The notes under the pieces: model-generated
The model's input: the letters and a program-made list of their open reading frames with translations, nothing else
Databases searched by the model: none
Told to the model about the DNA's origin: nothing
Assembly: GCF_003852425.1 (NCBI RefSeq)
Contig: NZ_QAJN01000008.1
Span: forward strand, 248,001 to 312,000
Reading direction: 5' to 3'
DNA from: Paucibacter sp. KBW04
Lineage (GTDB): Bacteria; Pseudomonadota; Gammaproteobacteria; Burkholderiales; Burkholderiaceae_C
Length of the DNA stretch: 64,000 nucleotides
Program-made: the position numbers and the translations under genes
In this document: in pieces, positions 19,644 to 31,018 of the stretch
How the letters are laid out: each line of letters opens with the position of its first letter
Numbering within the stretch: the first letter of the stretch is position 1

Positions 19644-21545
19644 TTAGGCGGCTTGCTGCTGCAGGCTCAGAATCTCGCCACGCAAGCGCTCCAACGTGAC
19701 CTCACCCGCCGCCAGCGGCGCACCTGCCACCAGGCCAACCCGGCTGAACAGGCCGCGCCGGAAGGGCTTGCTCATCGCCTCGCCGCGTTCGATGCGCGAG
19801 AAAAAAGAACCCCACAGATTTTGCAAAGCCAGGGGCACGACGGGCAGCTCGGGCGAACCTTCCAATAGCTTCATCACCCCGCCCTTGAAGGGCTGCAACT
19901 CGCCGTCGCGGGTGATGCCACCCTCGGGGAAGATGCAGACCAGATCGCCCTCGGCCAGCACCTGGCGGGCCTGCGCGAAGGCTCGCTCGTAGGTGGCCGG
20001 GTCGTCTTTTTGCGAGGCGATGGGGATGGCCTTGGCCAGGCGGAACAGCCATCCCAAGACCGGCATGGCGAAGATGCGGTGGTCCATCAAGAAGCAGATG
20101 GGCCGCGGGCTCGCTGCCATCAAGAGCACGGCGTCGACAAAGGACACATGGTTGCAGACCAGCACCGCCGCGCCCTGGGTGGGGATGTGCTCATCACCCT
20201 TGAGCTTGAAGCGATAAATCAGGCGCGAGGCCATGAAGGCGATGAAGCGCAAGAGGTACTCAGGCATCAGCAAGACGATGTAGAGCGCCATGGCCGCATT
20301 GGCAAGGCCGGCGGCCAGAAAGACCTCGGGCACCGTGAAGCCCGCGCCCAGCATGATGCCGGCCAACAAGGAGCTGGCCACCATAAAGATGGCGTTGAGA
20401 ATATTGTTGGCCGCGATGATGCGGGCGCGGTGCGAGGGCTGCGAGCGCAGCTGGATCAGCGCGTACATGGGCACGCTGTAAAGCCCGGTGAACAGAGCCA
20501 GCAGGCCCAGATCGATCAGCACCCGCCAATGCTTGGCATGGGCCAGGAACTCGGGCACGGTCTGCAGGCTGCTTGGCGGCAGGCCGCGTGAGGCAAAGTA
20601 GAGGTCCACCGCAAACAGCGTCATGCCGATGGCGCCCATGGGCACCAGGCCGATCTCCACATGGCGGCGCGAGAGCAGTTCGCACATCAAGGCGCCCACG
20701 CCCACGCCAACTGAGAACACCACCAGCAGCATGGACGCGACATGCTCGTTGCCGTGCAGGACCTCTTTGGCGAAGGTGGGGAAGTTGGCCAGAAACACCA
20801 CGCCGAAGAACCACATCCAGGAGATGCCCAGCAGGGAGCGGAACACCACCACGTTCTCACGCGCCAGCTTGAGATTGCGCCAGGTCTCGGTGAAGGGGTT
20901 CCAGTTGATCTGCAGCTGCGGATCGGTGGCCGGGCTATGGGGCACAAACTGGGCCGTGATGCGGCCGACCACAGCGACGGCCAAGCAGGCCAGGCCGGTG
21001 TAGAAGGCGCCTACCTCGGGCAGCGCGATCAACAGCCCGCCGATCAAATTGCCCAGGATGATGGCCACAAAAGTGCCCATCTCCACCATGCCATTGCCGC
21101 CGGTGATTTCCTTTTCGTTTAGCTGCTGGGGCAGGTAGGCGAACTTGACCGGGCCGAACAAGGTGGAGTGCATGCCCATCATGAACACGCAAGCCAACAG
21201 CACCGGCACCTGGGCATGCCAAAAGCCCCACAAGGCCACCAACATGATGACGATCTCGAAGCTCTTGACGAAGCGCATCAGGCGCGACTTTTCATACTTG
21301 TCCGCCAGCTGCCCGCTGGTGGCCGAGAACAGCACAAAGGGCAGGATGAACAAGGCCGCAATCACCAGGCCGGCCTCGGCTGGCGGCAACCAGCTTAGTT
21401 GCAGCTGGTAAGTCACCATCACGGTCAGTGCGAACTTGGAGATATTGTCATTGGCCGCACCCAGGAACTGGGTCCAGAAGAAGGGCGCAAAGCGGCGCTG
21501 CTTGAGCAGGCCGAATTGGCTGGTGTGGCTGTCGTGGGTGTTCAC
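19644..21545 (-). CDS. MFS transporter fused to a PlsC-type acyltransferase
   Basis: A 633-residue fusion. Residues 1-420 are a 12-helix MFS domain (AANDNISKFALTVMVTY, GQLADKYEKSRLMRFVKSFE) resembling LplT, the lysophospholipid flippase. Residues 440-633 are a glycerolipid acyltransferase: NHVSFVD is the catalytic NHxxxxD box and FPEGGITRDGE the substrate-binding block. The AMP-ligase domain found in larger LplT-Aas fusions is absent. The likely role is taking up lysophospholipid and reacylating it at the inner membrane. It starts with GTG, and GTGA overlaps the DUF2145 stop, so translation is coupled. Confidence 0.88.
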   Translation of the reverse strand: MNTHDSHTSQFGLLKQRRFAPFFWTQFLGAANDNISKFALTVMVTYQLQLSWLPPAEAGLVIAALFILPFVLFSATSGQLADKYEKSRLMRFVKSFEIVIMLVALWGFWHAQVPVLLACVFMMGMHSTLFGPVKFAYLPQQLNEKEITGGNGMVEMGTFVAIILGNLIGGLLIALPEVGAFYTGLACLAVAVVGRITAQFVPHSPATDPQLQINWNPFTETWRNLKLARENVVVFRSLLGISWMWFFGVVFLANFPTFAKEVLHGNEHVASMLLVVFSVGVGVGALMCELLSRRHVEIGLVPMGAIGMTLFAVDLYFASRGLPPSSLQTVPEFLAHAKHWRVLIDLGLLALFTGLYSVPMYALIQLRSQPSHRARIIAANNILNAIFMVASSLLAGIMLGAGFTVPEVFLAAGLANAAMALYIVLLMPEYLLRFIAFMASRLIYRFKLKGDEHIPTQGAAVLVCNHVSFVDAVLLMAASPRPICFLMDHRIFAMPVLGWLFRLAKAIPIASQKDDPATYERAFAQARQVLAEGDLVCIFPEGGITRDGELQPFKGGVMKLLEGSPELPVVPLALQNLWGSFFSRIERGEAMSKPFRRGLFSRVGLVAGAPLAAGEVTLERLRGEILSLQQQAA

Positions 21546-24308: not shown

Positions 24309-25058
24309 ATGTCCAGTACCCAATCCCTGATCGCTCTCATCAAGGCAGAGATGAAGACCGCCGGCCTCAGCTATGCGGCCTTGGCCGAGGCGCTGGGGCT
24401 GTCGGAGTCCAGCGTCAAGCGCATGTTTGCGGCCGGTGGCGAGATGCCACTCTCGCGGGTGGATGAGATCTGCCGCGTGCTGAACACCGACTTCGCCGAA
24501 CTCTCGCAAAAGCTGCTGGCCCAGGCTCCGCTGCGTCGCGAGCTAAGCCTGGCGCAGGAGCGTGCCGTGGTGGCCGACCCCAAGCTGCTCTTGATGGCGA
24601 TTTGCTGCTTGAGCCAATGGAGTGCCGAGCAGATCCTCGCCAGCTACCGCCTCAGCGAGGCCGAGGTGACGCGCTACTTGGCGCAGCTCGACAGCCTTGG
24701 CATCCTGGAGCTGCGGCCGCTGAACCGCTACAAGCTGCAGGTGGCCAAAACCTTTCGCTGGCGCCCGCATGGGCCGGTGATGAACTTCTTCCGCGATGCG
24801 GTGATGGCCGACTACTTCTCCGGCGGTTTCGATGGCGATGGCGAGCTGCTGACCCTGGTCCACGGCCAGCTCTCACCCCAGGCCGCACGCGAGCTGACGG
24901 CCCGCCTGCAGCGCGTGGCCGAGGACTTTGCCCGCCAGCATTCCCTGGACCAGAAATTGGCCGAGCATGAGAAGCGGCCCTATTCCATGGTGCTGGGCAT
25001 GCGCTCTTGGTTGTTTGAGCACTTCAAGCATCTGCAGCGCGCGGCGAAAAAGACCTGA
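24309..25058 (+). CDS. XRE-family helix-turn-helix regulator
   Basis: A 249-residue protein with an N-terminal Cro/C1-type HTH (LSYAALAEALGLSESSVKRM, residues 19-38). The longer C-terminal part contains a winged-helix-like segment (AEVTRYLAQLDSLGILELRP). The remainder is helical and without a known ligand motif. It is divergent from the amidohydrolase gene (106 bp apart) and ends only 24 bp before the retron ncRNA. It could be an independent regulator or linked to the retron; sequence alone does not decide. Confidence 0.82.
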   Translation: MSSTQSLIALIKAEMKTAGLSYAALAEALGLSESSVKRMFAAGGEMPLSRVDEICRVLNTDFAELSQKLLAQAPLRRELSLAQERAVVADPKLLLMAICCLSQWSAEQILASYRLSEAEVTRYLAQLDSLGILELRPLNRYKLQVAKTFRWRPHGPVMNFFRDAVMADYFSGGFDGDGELLTLVHGQLSPQAARELTARLQRVAEDFARQHSLDQKLAEHEKRPYSMVLGMRSWLFEHFKHLQRAAKKT

Positions 25059-25069
25059 AATCTGCGGGC

Positions 25070-25075
25070 TATCAT
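25070..25075 (+). promoter_or_regulatory. Possible -10 element for the retron ncRNA
   Basis: TATCAT at 25070-25075 ends seven bases before the first base of the a1 repeat at 25082, the distance expected from a -10 box to a start site. No convincing -35 is visible, so this is tentative. Confidence 0.35.
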
Positions 25076-25081
25076 GGCCGC

Positions 25082-25252
25082 GCGGCCCATTGCCCAAGTT
25101 CTCCGTGAAGTGCATGCACGGCTGTGTTTGCGCCTCACACCCAGGGGCACCCCCTGGGTCATGTTTTTGTTGAAGTCAATCGGGGCCTGATCGGCGTGGC
25201 GCTGTGCGCCAGTCGGATCAGGCAGGACCCGCAGGTTGGGCAGCTGGGCCGC
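25082..25252 (+). ncRNA. Predicted retron msr-msd RNA
   Basis: The segment before the RT gene folds like a retron template. Repeat a1 is GCGGCCCA (25082-25089) plus TGCCCAA (25091-25097). Repeat a2 is TTGGGCA (25236-25242) plus TGGGCCGC (25245-25252). Together they pair over 15 bp with a small internal loop. G25098 directly follows a1, the usual place of the branching guanosine. msr-like hairpins are CCGTG/CACGG (25103-25121) and a 9-bp stem ACCCAGGGG/CCCCTGGGT with a 3-nt loop (25139-25159). The msd-like hairpin spans 25181-25231: CGGG, GCCTGATC and GGCG pair with CGCC, GATCAGGC and CCCG. Predicted msDNA is roughly 55-75 nt. This is an inference from base pairing and position. Confidence 0.8.
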
Positions 25253-25280
25253 ACCTTTTATTAACTCCCAAGCTCGGCCC

Positions 25281-26624
25281 ATGGCCCGACTCTCACGCTT
25301 GACGGCGCTGGCCCTGGCCCGCGCCCTGCTGGCCGGCCCGCATCAGGCCCAGGGTCTGGCCGCGCGCATGACCAATTGCTTGGGCCTGGGCCTGGAGCCA
25401 AGGCCATGGCTTGAGACCCTGGCCCTGCGCTTGGCCCGCATGCCCGGCGAGCGCTGGGCGCGGCTGGAGCCTCGTAGTCTGGCCACGCTGATCGAGAAAG
25501 AGCAGGCCTTTCGGGATGCTTGCGCCTCCGCGGCGCCACCCCGGCCGCAGCGCTATCTGCTGCGGCCGCGCGAGCACAAAGCGGGCGCGCCCCTGGGCCT
25601 GGAGGCCTGTGACTTGCCCGATCTGCCCCATGTCGGCGCGCTGGCCGATTGGCTAGGCCTGCCCCTGGGTGGCTTGTGGCGCCTGAGTAAACCGCGCGAT
25701 TGGCAGCGCCGCGAGCCGCTCTCGGCCCAGCACTATCGCTTCCAGCTGATGGCCAAACGCAGCGGCGGCTGGCGCTTGCTGGAGGTGCCCGAGCCGCATC
25801 TGATGGGCGTGCAGCGCAAGATTCTGCGTGGGCTCTTGCAGCAGCTGCCCTTGCACGAGGCCGCGATGGCTTATGCGCCCGGCCGTGGCGTGCGCGAGCA
25901 TGCGGCCCTGCATGCAGGGCAGGCCGTGCTCTTGCGCTACGACCTGTGCGACTTCTTCGCGGCCGTGCAAGCCGCCCGCTTGCGGGCCTTGTTCCTCACC
26001 TTGGGCTATCCGCATGAAGTGGCAGTTAGCCTCGCGGCGCTGTGCAGCGTGGCCACGCCCGAGCCGGTGCTGCGCCGCATGCACGAGGCCGGCCAGCTGA
26101 CTTGGACCCAGCTGCAAAAGCTGCGCGGCGCCCATCTGCCCCAAGGCGCGCCCAGCTCGGCCACCCTGGCCAATCTCTGTGCCTTTCGCCTGGACCTGCG
26201 CCTGGATGGCCTGGCCCAGGCCCTGGGCGCGCGCTACAGCCGCTATGCCGATGACCTGGTGTTCTCGGGCCCGCAGCATCTGCGGCAGGCGCAGGCGCGC
26301 ATCTCGGCCTGGGTGGGGCGCATCGCTCTGGAGGAAGGTTTTGCCCTCAATCACCGCAAGAGCCGCTGCCTGAGTGCCGGCGGCCGGCAGATGGTGTGCG
26401 GTGTGGTCGTCAATGCCCTGCCCAATCTGCCGCGCGCCGAGTTCGACCGCCTCAAGGCCTTGCTGCATCAATGCGTGCTGCATGGCCCGGCCAGCCAGAA
26501 CCGCCAGCAACACGCCGACTGGCCGGCCCATCTCCGCGGCCGCGTGGCCTGGGCCGCACAACTCAACCCCGCCAAGGCCCAGCGCCTGCAAGCCCTGCTT
26601 GCGCGGGTGGACTGGACGCGCTGA
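25281..26624 (+). CDS. Retron-type reverse transcriptase with N-terminal extension
   Basis: A 447-residue reverse transcriptase. The RT core occupies about residues 150-400: RT3 DLCDFFAAV (Asp221), RT4 LPQGAPSSATLAN (286-298), RT5 RYADDLVFSG with catalytic Asp324-Asp325, and a VCGVVVN motif (372-378) where retron RTs usually have VTGxxVN. The retron NAxxH motif appears as HAALH (207-211). About 145 residues precede the core with no domain I recognise; long N-terminal extensions are known from myxobacterial-type retron RTs. The ATG lies 28 bp after a2. A TTG at 25236 lies inside a2 and is rejected. No separate effector gene follows; the next gene is a porin. Confidence 0.88.
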   Translation: MARLSRLTALALARALLAGPHQAQGLAARMTNCLGLGLEPRPWLETLALRLARMPGERWARLEPRSLATLIEKEQAFRDACASAAPPRPQRYLLRPREHKAGAPLGLEACDLPDLPHVGALADWLGLPLGGLWRLSKPRDWQRREPLSAQHYRFQLMAKRSGGWRLLEVPEPHLMGVQRKILRGLLQQLPLHEAAMAYAPGRGVREHAALHAGQAVLLRYDLCDFFAAVQAARLRALFLTLGYPHEVAVSLAALCSVATPEPVLRRMHEAGQLTWTQLQKLRGAHLPQGAPSSATLANLCAFRLDLRLDGLAQALGARYSRYADDLVFSGPQHLRQAQARISAWVGRIALEEGFALNHRKSRCLSAGGRQMVCGVVVNALPNLPRAEFDRLKALLHQCVLHGPASQNRQQHADWPAHLRGRVAWAAQLNPAKAQRLQALLARVDWTR

Positions 26625-26899: not shown

Positions 26900-27979
26900 G
26901 TGAAATCTATAGCTTCGTCACTCCTGATAGTGACAGCCATGAGTAGCCCCGCCTTTGCCGGCAGCCAGGTTCAGGTCTACGGCCTGCTCGATGTGGGCGT
27001 CAGCCGGCTCAGCAATATGGGCGGCCAGGCCATTTGGTTGGTGGACACCGGCGTGCAGCAGGCCAACCGCCTGGGATTCCGTAGCGAAGAAGATTTGGGC
27101 GGCGGCCAGCGCGCCCTGTTTGTGCTGGAAAGCGGGTTTGCCCTGGATACCGGCATGCTGGGGCAGGGGGGGTTGATCTTTGGCCGCCAGGCCTGGCTGG
27201 GTTTGCAGTCGTCCTATGGCGTGATCAGCCTGGGGCGGCAATATGACTTCATGGTCGAAGAATTGGCCAATGCTGCGACGGCCGCCAATATCGGCGGCCT
27301 GTATGCCTGGCATTTGGGCGATGTGGATCGCATCGCTGGAGAGCGTTTGAACAACGCCCTCAAATACCAATTCAAGAGCTCGGGCGGTTTCAATATCGGC
27401 GTTCTTTACTCCCTGGGCGAGGTGGCGGGTGCCAGCCAAGCCAAGAGCGGCTGGAGTGCCGGCCTGGGGTATAGCGGCGATGGTTTCAGCCTGGGCCTGG
27501 CCTATACCCAGGCACGCGACACCAGTTTCCTGCCCTTTAATTTCATGGGGCTGAGCCAGTTTGGCGGGCAGAGCACGCCCAGCGGCACGGCCATCGCTCT
27601 CGATAAAACCAGCAATCTCGGCCTGGCGGCGACTTATCGCCTGGGGGCTTTCAATCTGCGCTCGGTCTTGACCTGGACACGGTTTGAGACCGCCAACGAG
27701 AAACTGGATTTAAAAATCTACGAAGCCGGGCTGGACTATTGGCTGGGCCCGAATCTGCTGGCTGGCTTTGGCTATGCCTATTCCCAGATGGCCGCCAATC
27801 ATTGGCACCAATTCAATATGGGGCTGGACTACAACCTGTCCAAACGCAGCGATGTCTATATGACTTATGGCCGGATTGATGCGGCGGGTGGCAATGTGTT
27901 TGGTGCCTTGCCTGCGCAAATTCCATCCAGTACTGCGCAGCAAGCGGCCCTGCGCGTGGGTTTACGAACAAAATTTTGA
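26900..27979 (+). CDS. Gram-negative trimeric porin
   Basis: A 359-residue outer-membrane porin of the OmpC-like betaproteobacterial type. A signal peptide (SLLIVTAMSSPAFAG) is followed by the conserved mature start VQVYGLLDVGVSRLSNMGG, then RLGFRSEEDLGGGQRALFVLESGF, a loop-3-like segment, and a terminal beta strand ending in Phe (LRVGLRTKF). It starts with GTG, with AAGGA at 26886-26890. It opens a likely operon with an M20 hydrolase and an MHS transporter, so it probably lets their substrate through the outer membrane. Confidence 0.92.
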   Translation: MKSIASSLLIVTAMSSPAFAGSQVQVYGLLDVGVSRLSNMGGQAIWLVDTGVQQANRLGFRSEEDLGGGQRALFVLESGFALDTGMLGQGGLIFGRQAWLGLQSSYGVISLGRQYDFMVEELANAATAANIGGLYAWHLGDVDRIAGERLNNALKYQFKSSGGFNIGVLYSLGEVAGASQAKSGWSAGLGYSGDGFSLGLAYTQARDTSFLPFNFMGLSQFGGQSTPSGTAIALDKTSNLGLAATYRLGAFNLRSVLTWTRFETANEKLDLKIYEAGLDYWLGPNLLAGFGYAYSQMAANHWHQFNMGLDYNLSKRSDVYMTYGRIDAAGGNVFGALPAQIPSSTAQQAALRVGLRTKF

Positions 27980-27993
27980 ACGAGCCATTCACC

Positions 27994-29166
27994 ATGACCC
28001 TATTTTCTCAATTAGGCAATGGCTTGGCGGCCCTGCGCGCCCTGCGCCAGGATATCCATGCCCATCCCGAGGCCGCTTTTCGGGAAACTCGCACCGCCCG
28101 TGTGGTAGCCCTGCGTTTGCGGGCGGCAGGGATTGAAACTCATGAAGCTGTGGGCGGCACCGGCGTGGTCGGAGTTCTGCGCGGTGATTTGCCGGATACC
28201 GGCCAAAGCATCGCACTGCGGGCCGATATGGACGCTTTACGCATGGACGAGGCCACCGGCCTGCCCTATGCCTCCTGCCAGGCGGGGGTATTTCATGGCT
28301 GTGGCCATGATGGCCATACCACCATGCTGATCGGTGCGGCCGAGTATCTGGCGGTGCATAGAAATTTCGCCGGCACGGTGGTGTTTGTGTTTCAACCGGC
28401 GGAAGAAAGTATTGCCGGTGCGGCCGCCATGCTGGCCGACGGCTTGCTGAAGCGCTTTCCCTTCAGCGAAATTTATGCCCTGCATAACGCGCCCCATTTG
28501 CCCCTGGGGCAAATTGCGCTGAAACCTGGGGTGATGCTGGCCGCGGGTGATTCCTTTGAAATCAGGGTCAAGGGTAAGGGCGGCCACGGCGCCAGACCGC
28601 AGGAAACGATTGATCCCATTGTTTGCCTGGCGCAGTTGCTGGTGGCGGCCCAAAGCATTGTCAGCCGCAATATCGACCCCATGGATGTGGCGGTCCTGAG
28701 TTTCGGCAAGATCGCCGCCGGGGAGGCTGGCAACGTCATCCCGGCTTCGGCCTATGCCGCGGGCACCCTGCGATCTTACAAAGAGAGTACGCGCCAACTT
28801 CTCAAAAAACGCTTGCAGGATCTGTGCACCGGCATGGCGCTGGCCAGCCATAGCCAGATCGAGCTGGACTTCCCCATCGGCTGCCCGGCCACCGTCAACC
28901 ACCCCGAGCAAACCGCCGTGGCGCTGGCCGTGGCGCATGAATTGCTGGGCGCGGAAAAGGTCAGCAGCGACTTCCCAGCCATTATGGCTGGGGAGGATTT
29001 CGCGGTGTTTCTGCAGCAAATACCGGGTTGTTATTTATTCCTGGGCCAGGGCGGCGTGGAATGCCACAACCCCGGCTATGACTTCAATGACGATATTTTG
29101 CCAATTGGCATCGCATTCTTTGTCCGTCTGGTCGAGCGCCGTTTGTCGGCGGCGGCGCAGCAATAA
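27994..29166 (+). CDS. M20-family amidohydrolase (hippurate/N-acyl amino acid hydrolase type)
   Basis: A 390-residue metal-dependent aminoacylase-type hydrolase. Signatures: DIHAHPEAAFRETRTA, ALRADMDALRMDE, the metal-binding GCGHDGHTTML, FQPAEE, ALHNAPHLPLG and the late MAGEDFAVF. These enzymes release an amino acid from N-acyl, N-benzoyl or indole-acyl conjugates. I place the start at the ATG at 27994; a TTG at 27976 would overlap the porin stop. It lies between a porin and a transporter, so the substrate is probably a conjugate imported by the latter. Confidence 0.9.
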   Translation: MTLFSQLGNGLAALRALRQDIHAHPEAAFRETRTARVVALRLRAAGIETHEAVGGTGVVGVLRGDLPDTGQSIALRADMDALRMDEATGLPYASCQAGVFHGCGHDGHTTMLIGAAEYLAVHRNFAGTVVFVFQPAEESIAGAAAMLADGLLKRFPFSEIYALHNAPHLPLGQIALKPGVMLAAGDSFEIRVKGKGGHGARPQETIDPIVCLAQLLVAAQSIVSRNIDPMDVAVLSFGKIAAGEAGNVIPASAYAAGTLRSYKESTRQLLKKRLQDLCTGMALASHSQIELDFPIGCPATVNHPEQTAVALAVAHELLGAEKVSSDFPAIMAGEDFAVFLQQIPGCYLFLGQGGVECHNPGYDFNDDILPIGIAFFVRLVERRLSAAAQQ

Positions 29167-29178
29167 AAGGTGAACAGC

Positions 29179-30489
29179 ATGAGTGAAATCAAATTGGGCG
29201 GCCAAGATATGAAGAGGTCGCCTTTCTACAATATTTTGATGGCCTCGGTGGGCAATGCCCTGGAGTGGTATGACTTCATCATCTACGGCTTTTTGTCGGT
29301 GGTGATTGCGCGAGTGTTTTTCCCAACCGGCAATGAGTTAACCTCGCTATTGCTGGCGCTGGCGAGTTTTGGCGTGCCATTTTTGGTGCGACCGTTTGGT
29401 GCATTTTTTATCGGCCGCTATGCCGACAAGCATGGCCGTAAACCGGCGCTGACGCTGACCGTGGGTTTGATGTTGCTGGGTACTTTGATCATTGCCTTAA
29501 CGCCGTCATTTGAAAGTATTGGCGTGATGGCGCCTGTTTTGGTGGTGTCTGCCCGTTTGCTGCAGGGCTTTTCGGCCGGCGGTGAATTTGGCAGCGCCAC
29601 CACTTTTCTGGCCGAGCAAAACCCCGCGCGCCGCGGGTTTTATGGCAGCTGGCAGTTTGCCAGCCAGGGTTTGGCCTCGATGTTTGCCGCCGGTGTGGCC
29701 TGGGCTATTTTCAGCCGCTATACCCCGGCCGAGGTGGATGCCTGGGCCTGGCGCCTGCCTTTTGTGTTTGGTCTGCTGATTGGCCCGGTGGGTTTGCTGA
29801 TGCGCCGCTCCATGCTGGAAACCACCGAGTTTCAGGCCGAGCAGAAAAAGGCCGCGCGTGAGAAGCCCGCGCCGGTGCAAGGCCGCCAGATGCTGCGCAA
29901 TGTCTTGCTGTGCATGGGTTTGATTGCAGGGGGCACGGTCAGCTCCTATGTGCTGATTCTGTATTTGCCCACCTTTGCCATCAAGCAATTGGGTTTGCCG
30001 CAAACCAGTGCTTTTTTGTCGGCCATGCTGACGGGCTTGATTTCCCTGCTGGTGACGCCGCTGATGGGGGAATTGTCCGACCGGATTGGCCGTATCCGCA
30101 TGATGCAGATCAGCCTGATTTTGGTGGCCGGCGCCATCATTCCCTTGTTCCTGCTGCTGCTGGAACATAAGGATTTGCAGAGTTTGCTGTTCTTCCAGGG
30201 TTTGATGGCCTTGCTGCTGAGTTTGTATAACGGCCCGCTGGCGGCGGTACTGGCCGAGTTATTCCCGGTGCGGGAGCGCAGCCTTGGGATTTCGCTGGGT
30301 TACAACCTGTCGGTGACCTTGTTTGGCGGTTTCGCCCCCATGGTTTTGACGGCGTTGATATCCGCCACCGGCTCCAAGGCGGCGCCCAGTATTTACGCCT
30401 TGTTTGCCATCGCTATTTCTTTTGTGGCCTTGGCCGTGGTGGCCAAAACCGAGCTGCCGCGCGCCGCGAGCCAGAGGGCTGCCGTGTAG
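29179..30489 (+). CDS. MHS-family major facilitator transporter
   Basis: A 436-residue, 12-helix symporter of the metabolite:H+ symporter group. It has the diagnostic start NALEWYDFIIYGFLSVVIAR, the loop RYADKHGRKPALTLTV, LLQGFSAGGEFGSATTFLAE, and SDRIGRIRMMQISL in the second half. Relatives carry carboxylic acids or betaines (ProP, KgtP, ShiA). The ATG at 29179 has AAAAGGTG six bases upstream; a GTG at 29170 is less likely. It lies 12 bp after the M20 gene, so it likely imports the substrate of that enzyme. Confidence 0.9.
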   Translation: MSEIKLGGQDMKRSPFYNILMASVGNALEWYDFIIYGFLSVVIARVFFPTGNELTSLLLALASFGVPFLVRPFGAFFIGRYADKHGRKPALTLTVGLMLLGTLIIALTPSFESIGVMAPVLVVSARLLQGFSAGGEFGSATTFLAEQNPARRGFYGSWQFASQGLASMFAAGVAWAIFSRYTPAEVDAWAWRLPFVFGLLIGPVGLLMRRSMLETTEFQAEQKKAAREKPAPVQGRQMLRNVLLCMGLIAGGTVSSYVLILYLPTFAIKQLGLPQTSAFLSAMLTGLISLLVTPLMGELSDRIGRIRMMQISLILVAGAIIPLFLLLLEHKDLQSLLFFQGLMALLLSLYNGPLAAVLAELFPVRERSLGISLGYNLSVTLFGGFAPMVLTALISATGSKAAPSIYALFAIAISFVALAVVAKTELPRAASQRAAV

Positions 30490-30523
30490 ACTGCCAGCCT
30501 CTCTTTGACTCATGTAGGTTGCG

Positions 30524-31018
30524 ATGGCGCGGATGAAAAAGAAGGAAGTCGACTTTCTGCAGCAGATGCTGGGTCAGATGGACAGCCCCTTCTATCTGTC
30601 CTACCGCTTCATCGCGCTGAGCGAGTTGGTCACCCGCGAGAACGACGCCCTCTACAAGAATGAGGTGGGCCTGGGGATCAAGGAGTTGCGGGTGCTGCGC
30701 CTGGTGCATCTGAACCCCGGCCAGCCGGTGTTCATGATCGGGCGCTGGTCGTTTGCCGAGAAGGCCATGACCTCCAAGCTGGTGGGCAAGCTTTGCGAGC
30801 TGGGCCTGCTGGAGCGCCGCATCGACGGCAAAGACGCCCGCTCCCTGCTGCTTTACGTCACGCCCGCCGGGGCGGAGAAGGTCAAGGCCGCCGACGCGGC
30901 CGCCCACCGCCTGTTTGCGCAACATTTCCCCTCCATGTCGCCCGAGCGTGCGGCGCAGCTGATGGGGACGCTGGACGAGTTGATTCTGGAGTTTGTGTCC
31001 TCGGCCACCCAGGCCTGA
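30524..31018 (+). CDS. MarR-family regulator
   Basis: A 164-residue winged-helix regulator. The DNA-binding part runs from GIKELRVLRLVHLNPGQ through MTSKLVGKLCELGLLERR to the wing DGKDARSLLLYVTPAG. It lies 34 bp after the transporter gene on the same strand. MarR proteins are usually ligand-released repressors of adjacent catabolic or transport genes, so it is the natural candidate to bind the dyad at 26809. Its stop touches that of the convergent CPBP gene. Confidence 0.88.
   Translation: MARMKKKEVDFLQQMLGQMDSPFYLSYRFIALSELVTRENDALYKNEVGLGIKELRVLRLVHLNPGQPVFMIGRWSFAEKAMTSKLVGKLCELGLLERRIDGKDARSLLLYVTPAGAEKVKAADAAAHRLFAQHFPSMSPERAAQLMGTLDELILEFVSSATQA

Follow-up and report, generated by a model that had tools for sequence, protein, structure and literature searches.

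A retron of a catalogued but untyped clade in Paucibacter sp. KBW04: a conserved template RNA and a reverse transcriptase without a commonly linked effector gene

In every test run, on sequence and on structural models, the locus described here appears to be a true retron, and its clade is catalogued without having been assigned a type. We consider it probable that this retron is reduced to two parts, a template RNA and a reverse transcriptase (RT), and that it serves in phage defence. It lies in a stretch of 64,000 nt of Paucibacter sp. KBW04 (contig NZ_QAJN01000008.1, positions 248,001-312,000, forward strand), which is called the window throughout and to which all coordinates refer. A structured RNA (25082-25252, + strand) is located 28 nt 5' of the ATG of a retron-type RT gene (25281-26624, + strand). 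This ATG was the best start in comparison with homologues, while an alternative TTG (25236) is found at the start of a2. The following parts were mapped:

25082..25097, + strand: a1, 5' arm of the long-range stem; pairs with 25236-25252, with compensatory changes in 14 of 16 aligned pairs
25098, + strand: putative priming (branch) guanosine directly after a1; G invariant in 34/34 aligned RNAs, role by analogy to Retron-Eco1
25105..25138, + strand: msr hairpin 1, from the fold; its length varies among homologues
25139..25159, + strand: msr hairpin 2, GGGG-loop-CCCC; conserved above all other elements, with pairing in 100% of cells across the 34 sequences
25181..25231, + strand: msd hairpin, the probable reverse-transcription template, from the fold; 9 of 10 modelled pairs with compensatory changes
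25236..25252, + strand: a2, 3' arm of the long-range stem; pairs with a1, by covariation
25281..26624 (stop included), + strand: retron reverse transcriptase, 447 aa; PADLOC RT_other, AF2, Foldseek
25281..25616, + strand: RT residues 1-112, a helical N-terminal domain; AF2, without Pfam or PDB match
26244..26255, + strand: YADD catalytic motif (Y322), from sequence; invariant in 60/60 aligned homologues
24309..25058, + strand: XRE-type HTH gene bordering a variable slot; considered separate from the retron

Within the sources searched, four points are new: the family of conserved template RNAs, the nearly one-to-one pairing that it appears to have with the RT clade, an N-terminal domain without known relatives, and the consistent absence of a shared linked effector. 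No description of the retron RNA was found in the searched literature, while the main retron classification and census surveys lie outside that scope and might hold an earlier one.

Folding of 25060-25285 gave -112 kcal/mol compared to -92.8 +/- 4.75 kcal/mol for 200 dinucleotide shuffles (z -4.05, 0/200 as low), with a long-range a1/a2 stem that encloses two msr-like hairpins and one msd-like hairpin. An earlier reading of the sequence alone had proposed a 15-bp a1/a2 pairing; the pairing was found at the proposed place, yet comprises 16 bp with one bulged base. Because of this bulge, a simple stem finder missed the window's own a1/a2 stem, and in individual homologues the top stem often scored only slightly above shuffled sequence (3 mononucleotide shuffles each; L131 omitted). 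Since an isolated stem says little in GC-rich DNA, the RNAs were aligned across homologues. The homologous loci were the best 80 of at least 555 relatives from a genome scan. The a1/a2 arms were placed automatically in 73 loci, several of them wrongly, and the 33 clean homologues were kept together with the window (alignment A3, n=34; L131 omitted). RNAalifold delivered 34 pairs for these RNAs, 26 of them with compensatory changes. Paired cells amounted to 92.5%, compared to 69.2% in shuffled and 38.7-47.3% in slid alignments, while the covariation score was 0.626 against 0.182 (shuffled) and 0.097-0.140 (slid); none of 500 shuffles attained any of the five observed measures. Choosing the structure from this very alignment tips the comparison slightly in its favour, and kinship alone can beat shuffles. 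However, the gap to both the shuffled and the slid controls is too large for structure choice or kinship to explain the covariation. The proof of the predicted RNA structure is comparative, by covariation. The check named in the sequence-only reading, covariation upstream of homologous RTs, was thereby answered with a conserved, covarying RNA of the same architecture. The G directly after a1, likewise proposed, corresponds to the invariant G25098, and the anticipated short msr-like hairpins and long msd-like hairpin could all be mapped (25105-25138, 25139-25159 and 25181-25231). Within hairpin 2, compensatory changes occur in 3 of 8 pairs, while the other 5 never vary among the 34 RNAs.

Rfam holds no family that matches the retron RNA at gathering score. 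Elsewhere in the window, positions 20757-20878 (- strand) match the Burkholderia sRNA family Bcj11 (RF02835, 92.6 bits). This match lies within the coding sequence of an ORF of 633 aa, by eye an MFS-acyltransferase fusion, and coding conservation may be the origin of the match.

From the alignment of 34 RNAs the covariance model R1 was built, which recovers the window RNA, itself a training sequence, at 25083-25251 (95.9 bits, E 8e-17). R1 was found upstream of the RT in 78 of the 80 loci (best 80 of at least 555), of which 33 had served for training, and in 45 of the 47 held-out loci, some of which are close to training ones. Of the two loci without an R1 match among the 80, L138 is cut by a contig end, while L126 has the RT; one additional weak antisense R1 fragment was detected. 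The RNA of L132 is found about 1.3 kb upstream of the RT, that of L149 about 0.5 kb. The ORF in between at L132 resembles an insertion-sequence gene, which we take to be TnpB-type, and it is therefore no partner gene. The record labels of these best 80 of at least 555 relatives comprise Pseudomonadota, Planctomycetota, Acidobacteriota, Myxococcota, Gemmatimonadota and Verrucomicrobiota, with many of the non-proteobacterial loci being MAG contigs whose binning may be wrong. Phylum labels cluster on the RT tree (77 of the 80 RTs plus the window, after length and stop filters).

A further set of loci, L040-L072, overlaps with these 80, several loci being the same records. There, R1 was present in 28/28 of the loci L040-L067, where the RT of the same clade is complete, shortened or frameshifted, and absent from L068, which has a more distant RT, and from the RT remnants L069-L071. 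In L058/L131 and in L067 the RT is split into two frames and the RNA still matches R1, while in L072 (genome G297) the RNA scores 68 bits beside mere RT remnants. Under stricter filters, 30 of 399 family genomes possess the RNA, each beside an RT of the same clade or a remnant. They comprise 29 genomes in which the window RT has a match (at least 45% identity over at least 190 residues) and, in addition, G297 with its remnant, a tally that compares two surveys of 399 family genomes, apparently the same draw. In the window's genus, 1 of 18 genomes carries the retron. Extra RNA copies were found neither in the own genome nor in the genus at E 0.001 (150 candidates scored per genome), and the genomes of L130, L132, L137, L074, L102 and L080 contain 1-7 RT match pieces each with exactly one R1 RNA per genome. 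Taken together, the sequence comparisons indicate a near one-to-one link between R1 RNA and RT clade. The covarying upstream RNA, the R1 matches and the RT homologues thus bear out the retron proposed from the sequence alone. Many family genomes also contain a second RT group, 34-39% identical and encoded in frames of about 580-790 aa (G233:C1, G363:C27, G112:C21 and G092:C17, among others); the one member checked, L068, has no R1 RNA. Carriage by phages was considered as well and rejected, as a scan of viral contigs gave 11 distant RTs of 23-34% identity.

The RT matches PADLOC RT_other (PDLC02949) best, with an E-value of 2.5e-130 if translated from TTG 25236 and 7.8e-130 from ATG 25281. From the TTG, RT_outgroup (PDLC03740, 3e-122) and RT_XIII (2e-80) follow, and the order is unchanged from the ATG. 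Both RT_other and RT_outgroup match 60/60 aligned homologues and span nearly the full length in the four members for which ranges are known. Consequently, the label 'uncharacterised' given in the sequence-only reading holds in part: for the RNA it is right as far as Rfam is concerned, while the RT clade is listed in PADLOC, as untyped. In the AF2 model (mean pLDDT 94.9, alignment of 60) the RT resembles retron RTs, which make up the top 18 Foldseek matches against the PDB. Ec86 is first among them, and the TM-score to Retron-Eco1 (Ec86) is 0.82-0.84 by target length. The retron-type motifs noticed before were recovered: YADD is invariant in 60/60 homologues and V-C-G-V-V-V-N is present. A V-T-G motif after the catalytic core is a feature of retron RTs; the window RT has VCG, and VTG is the majority in an alignment of 20 sequences. 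Region X of the window RT reads H-A-A-L-H, with N in some homologues such as L053. Of 16 validated retron RTs, 14 carry N-A-x-x-H, while Ec48 and Mx65 likewise lack the N, according to the available text of PMC6868368.

Residues 1-111 of the RT form six main helices, predicted by AF2 with a pLDDT of 91.5 when modelled alone. Neither fold (best E 3.7) nor sequence (best E 0.41) of this domain matched the PDB, and any given Pfam family was found in at most 1 of 32 members (best E 0.0066), with none in the window's. The domain is present in most members, while the N-terminus of L151 is unlike it. Its mean majority fraction is 0.38 compared to 0.62 for the RT part, and among polar residues only R29 is conserved in at least 70% of 60 sequences. 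Given this low conservation of polar residues, no active site is visible, and sequence and model argue for a structural or binding role rather than an enzyme.

Neighbouring genes were surveyed within 2.5 kb in 79 loci plus the window (from the best 80 of at least 555 relatives; L131 omitted). The survey yielded 212 clusters of at least two loci, shadow ORFs included, of which 83 span more than one genus label, and no neighbour was common to more than 4 of the 80 loci across genera. The largest clusters comprise 11 loci, all of them from Burkholderia and at a single conserved position on the chromosome. Among the window and 28 other loci (L068-L072 omitted), no neighbour cluster exceeded six members. 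L053 and L057, from two genomes of another genus, share the same neighbours, with housekeeping genes around the retron. The sequence-only reading had assumed that the locus works like characterised defence retrons. This likeness was not borne out, because no effector gene was seen alongside. Two sets of candidate partners were rejected. Orthologues of the HTH gene (24309-25058) exist in congeners that have no retron, and L040 is the sole locus of L040-L152 in which this gene was found. The downstream porin, M20 and MarR genes were not found in the other loci, save one porin match of 31% (L102). GC content is 0.56-0.63 in most 1-kb windows of the porin-to-MarR block compared to 0.66-0.70 over the retron, which is close to the genes upstream.

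The surroundings of the locus provide the main evidence for a defence role. Up to about 31019, the slot in the window comprises the HTH gene, the retron, the lower-GC porin/M20/MFS/MarR block (26900-31018) and a CPBP gene. The block of porin, M20 peptidase, MFS and MarR-like genes is absent at the same place in the sister genome G004 and is probably a separate acquisition. Besides the window, the evidence covers six slots. In G004, an interrupted HTH gene is followed by a YhcG/DUF1016 nuclease (PDC-S02, 1.1e-128) and the CPBP gene, while in G006 the HTH gene precedes GajA (4.2e-238) and GajB (1.5e-208), i.e., Gabija. G011 (76% complete) contributes two contigs, one with an Mrr-like nuclease and the other with a P-loop protein showing weak matches. 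In G010, where the HTH gene is broken, nothing was recognised as defence beyond weak matches. In G093, a retron of the same kind and a few short ORFs, one of them ParE-like by eye, lie between the HTH gene and the CPBP gene; RNA and RT can therefore occupy the slot without a further gene of notable size. The far flank differs in G006, G010 and G011. Thus the slot between the HTH gene and the CPBP gene, or another flank, looks like a defence hotspot, and its cargo in sister genomes suggests phage defence on grounds of gene content. On the other side stand the retron's occurrence in 1 of 18 genus genomes and its positions elsewhere, often among housekeeping genes (two loci, L053 and L057, examined) and at one fixed place in 11 Burkholderia loci, both of which are atypical of defence islands. 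The replaced asparagine in region X and locus L126, with its RT yet no R1 match, likewise count against the two-part retron.

A mechanism can be envisioned as follows. The RNA (25082-25252) would be transcribed just ahead of the RT gene and bound by the RT, probably via hairpin 2, for which we infer a recognition role. The RT would then copy the msd hairpin starting from G25098, next to the a1/a2 stem, and the product, single-stranded DNA with a length of about 55-75 nt, might stay bound in a complex of RNA, DNA and protein. Within this complex, the N-terminal domain would most likely act as a docking or RNA-binding module and not as an enzyme. The complex might be a sensor in phage defence, and either the complex or a partner whose gene lies elsewhere would provide the output. 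The boldest version, a six-phylum class of retrons that consists of RT and template RNA alone and in which the complex with its N-terminal domain is both sensor and output, without a toxin, is a tentative and rather doubtful proposal.

Several other explanations have to be weighed. One might speculate that the fused N-terminal domain is itself the effector of a single-gene retron, comparable to types I-C, XI and XII. The domain occurs in most members and folds confidently, and PADLOC recognises single-gene retrons as a kind; however, only R29 is conserved among its polar residues and no active site is visible. We consider a fused effector unlikely, and a non-enzymatic one would still be compatible with these data. 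The effector of an ordinary tripartite retron might instead reside elsewhere in the genome; any effector would have to be unlinked, since no neighbouring gene is conserved widely. In favour of this explanation, defence retrons typically possess an effector (PMC12548924, as far as its accessible part goes). Against it, a fused or additional protein is described in the accessible part of PMC12262390. The retron effectors known to us are linked to the RT or fused with it, and we would expect a co-transferring pair to remain linked, which makes this explanation improbable as well.

A housekeeping or regulatory role instead of defence would fit the constant neighbours of the 11 Burkholderia loci and of L053 and L057, the clustering of phylum labels on the RT tree and a GC content near that of the upstream genes; vertical inheritance has also been described for myxobacterial retrons (PMC6868368, in part). 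Yet the patchy presence in the window's genus (1/18) and the defence genes in the slot of sister genomes speak against it, and we regard such a role as not very likely. Finally, the RNA could be a leader or attenuator of the RT gene rather than a template. Hairpin 2 and the following T-run do score as a terminator-like site, one of 3 found in the window where 1.7 were expected. However, the alignment of 34 RNAs shows conservation of the a1/a2 stem, of the G and of the msd hairpin, in the layout of a retron msr-msd RNA, but none of the T-run. An attenuator was rejected on these grounds as highly improbable. We therefore maintain the two-part retron with a probable role in phage defence as the preferred reading.

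If a clade is this widespread, strongly conserves its template RNA and yet shows no commonly linked effector, it is either an exception to the toxin-antitoxin-like rule or has a hidden partner. With the covariance model and the mapped boundaries, this question becomes testable with a construct of about 1.6 kb. In addition, the template RNA family could serve tools for DNA production.

Compared with known systems, the locus shows most of the structural hallmarks of a retron: a retron-group RT with YADD, a covarying a1/a2 RNA, a G after a1, and msr and msd hairpins; one letter differs in each of two RT motifs, N-A-x-x-H and V-T-G. As an effector of the tripartite types (I-XIII) was not seen among the neighbours within 2.5 kb or recognised in the N-terminal domain, it is filed as a retron in the original sense, outside the numbered types. 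The best and second-best models for its RT, RT_other and RT_outgroup, represent untyped retron RTs in PADLOC, and the library gives no effector or function for them. Defence retrons have been likened to toxin-antitoxin sets, with the RNA-DNA complex keeping the effector in check (PMC12262390, in part). For some retrons, though, a review remarks that no clear link to effector genes in the vicinity seems to exist (PMC8867640), and by this remark a missing linked effector is not new as such.

The closest structural relative, Retron-Eco1 (Ec86), shares the RT fold, the a1/a2 stem, the priming G after a1 and the msr and msd hairpins. To our knowledge, it has no N-terminal domain of the kind found in the window RT. 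Furthermore, Eco1 has an effector (PDB entry title), and hairpin 2 of the window differs as GGGG-loop-CCCC. For Eco1, the priming G after a1 and a mutation-sensitive P3 hairpin are described in the available portion of PMC11754653.

The Mx162-type resembles the window retron in that its RT has an extended N-terminus. We assume that the myxobacterial RT matching RT_XIII is of this type, for which we know of no effector. Myxococcus qinghaiensis has both kinds of RT in one genome, with different N-termini and RNAs. Across 305 aligned positions of the RT part, the Mx162-like RT and the window RT share 33% identity. The N-terminus of the Mx162-like RT, in an alignment with those of two planctomycetes, gave no match to the window's (hhalign probability 0.04%), and no R1 RNA was found beside this RT. 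With RT_XIII only the third PADLOC model (2e-80), a different N-terminus and no R1 RNA, an Mx162-type identity was rejected. For myxobacterial RTs, N-terminal extensions and vertical inheritance are stated in the accessible text of PMC6868368, which also mentions a conserved G after a1. The single-gene retrons of PADLOC with a fused Toprim (I-C), protease (XI) or TIR (XII) domain likewise do without a separate effector gene, whereas the additional domain of the window RT is N-terminal, small and helical, without conservation of a catalytic type.
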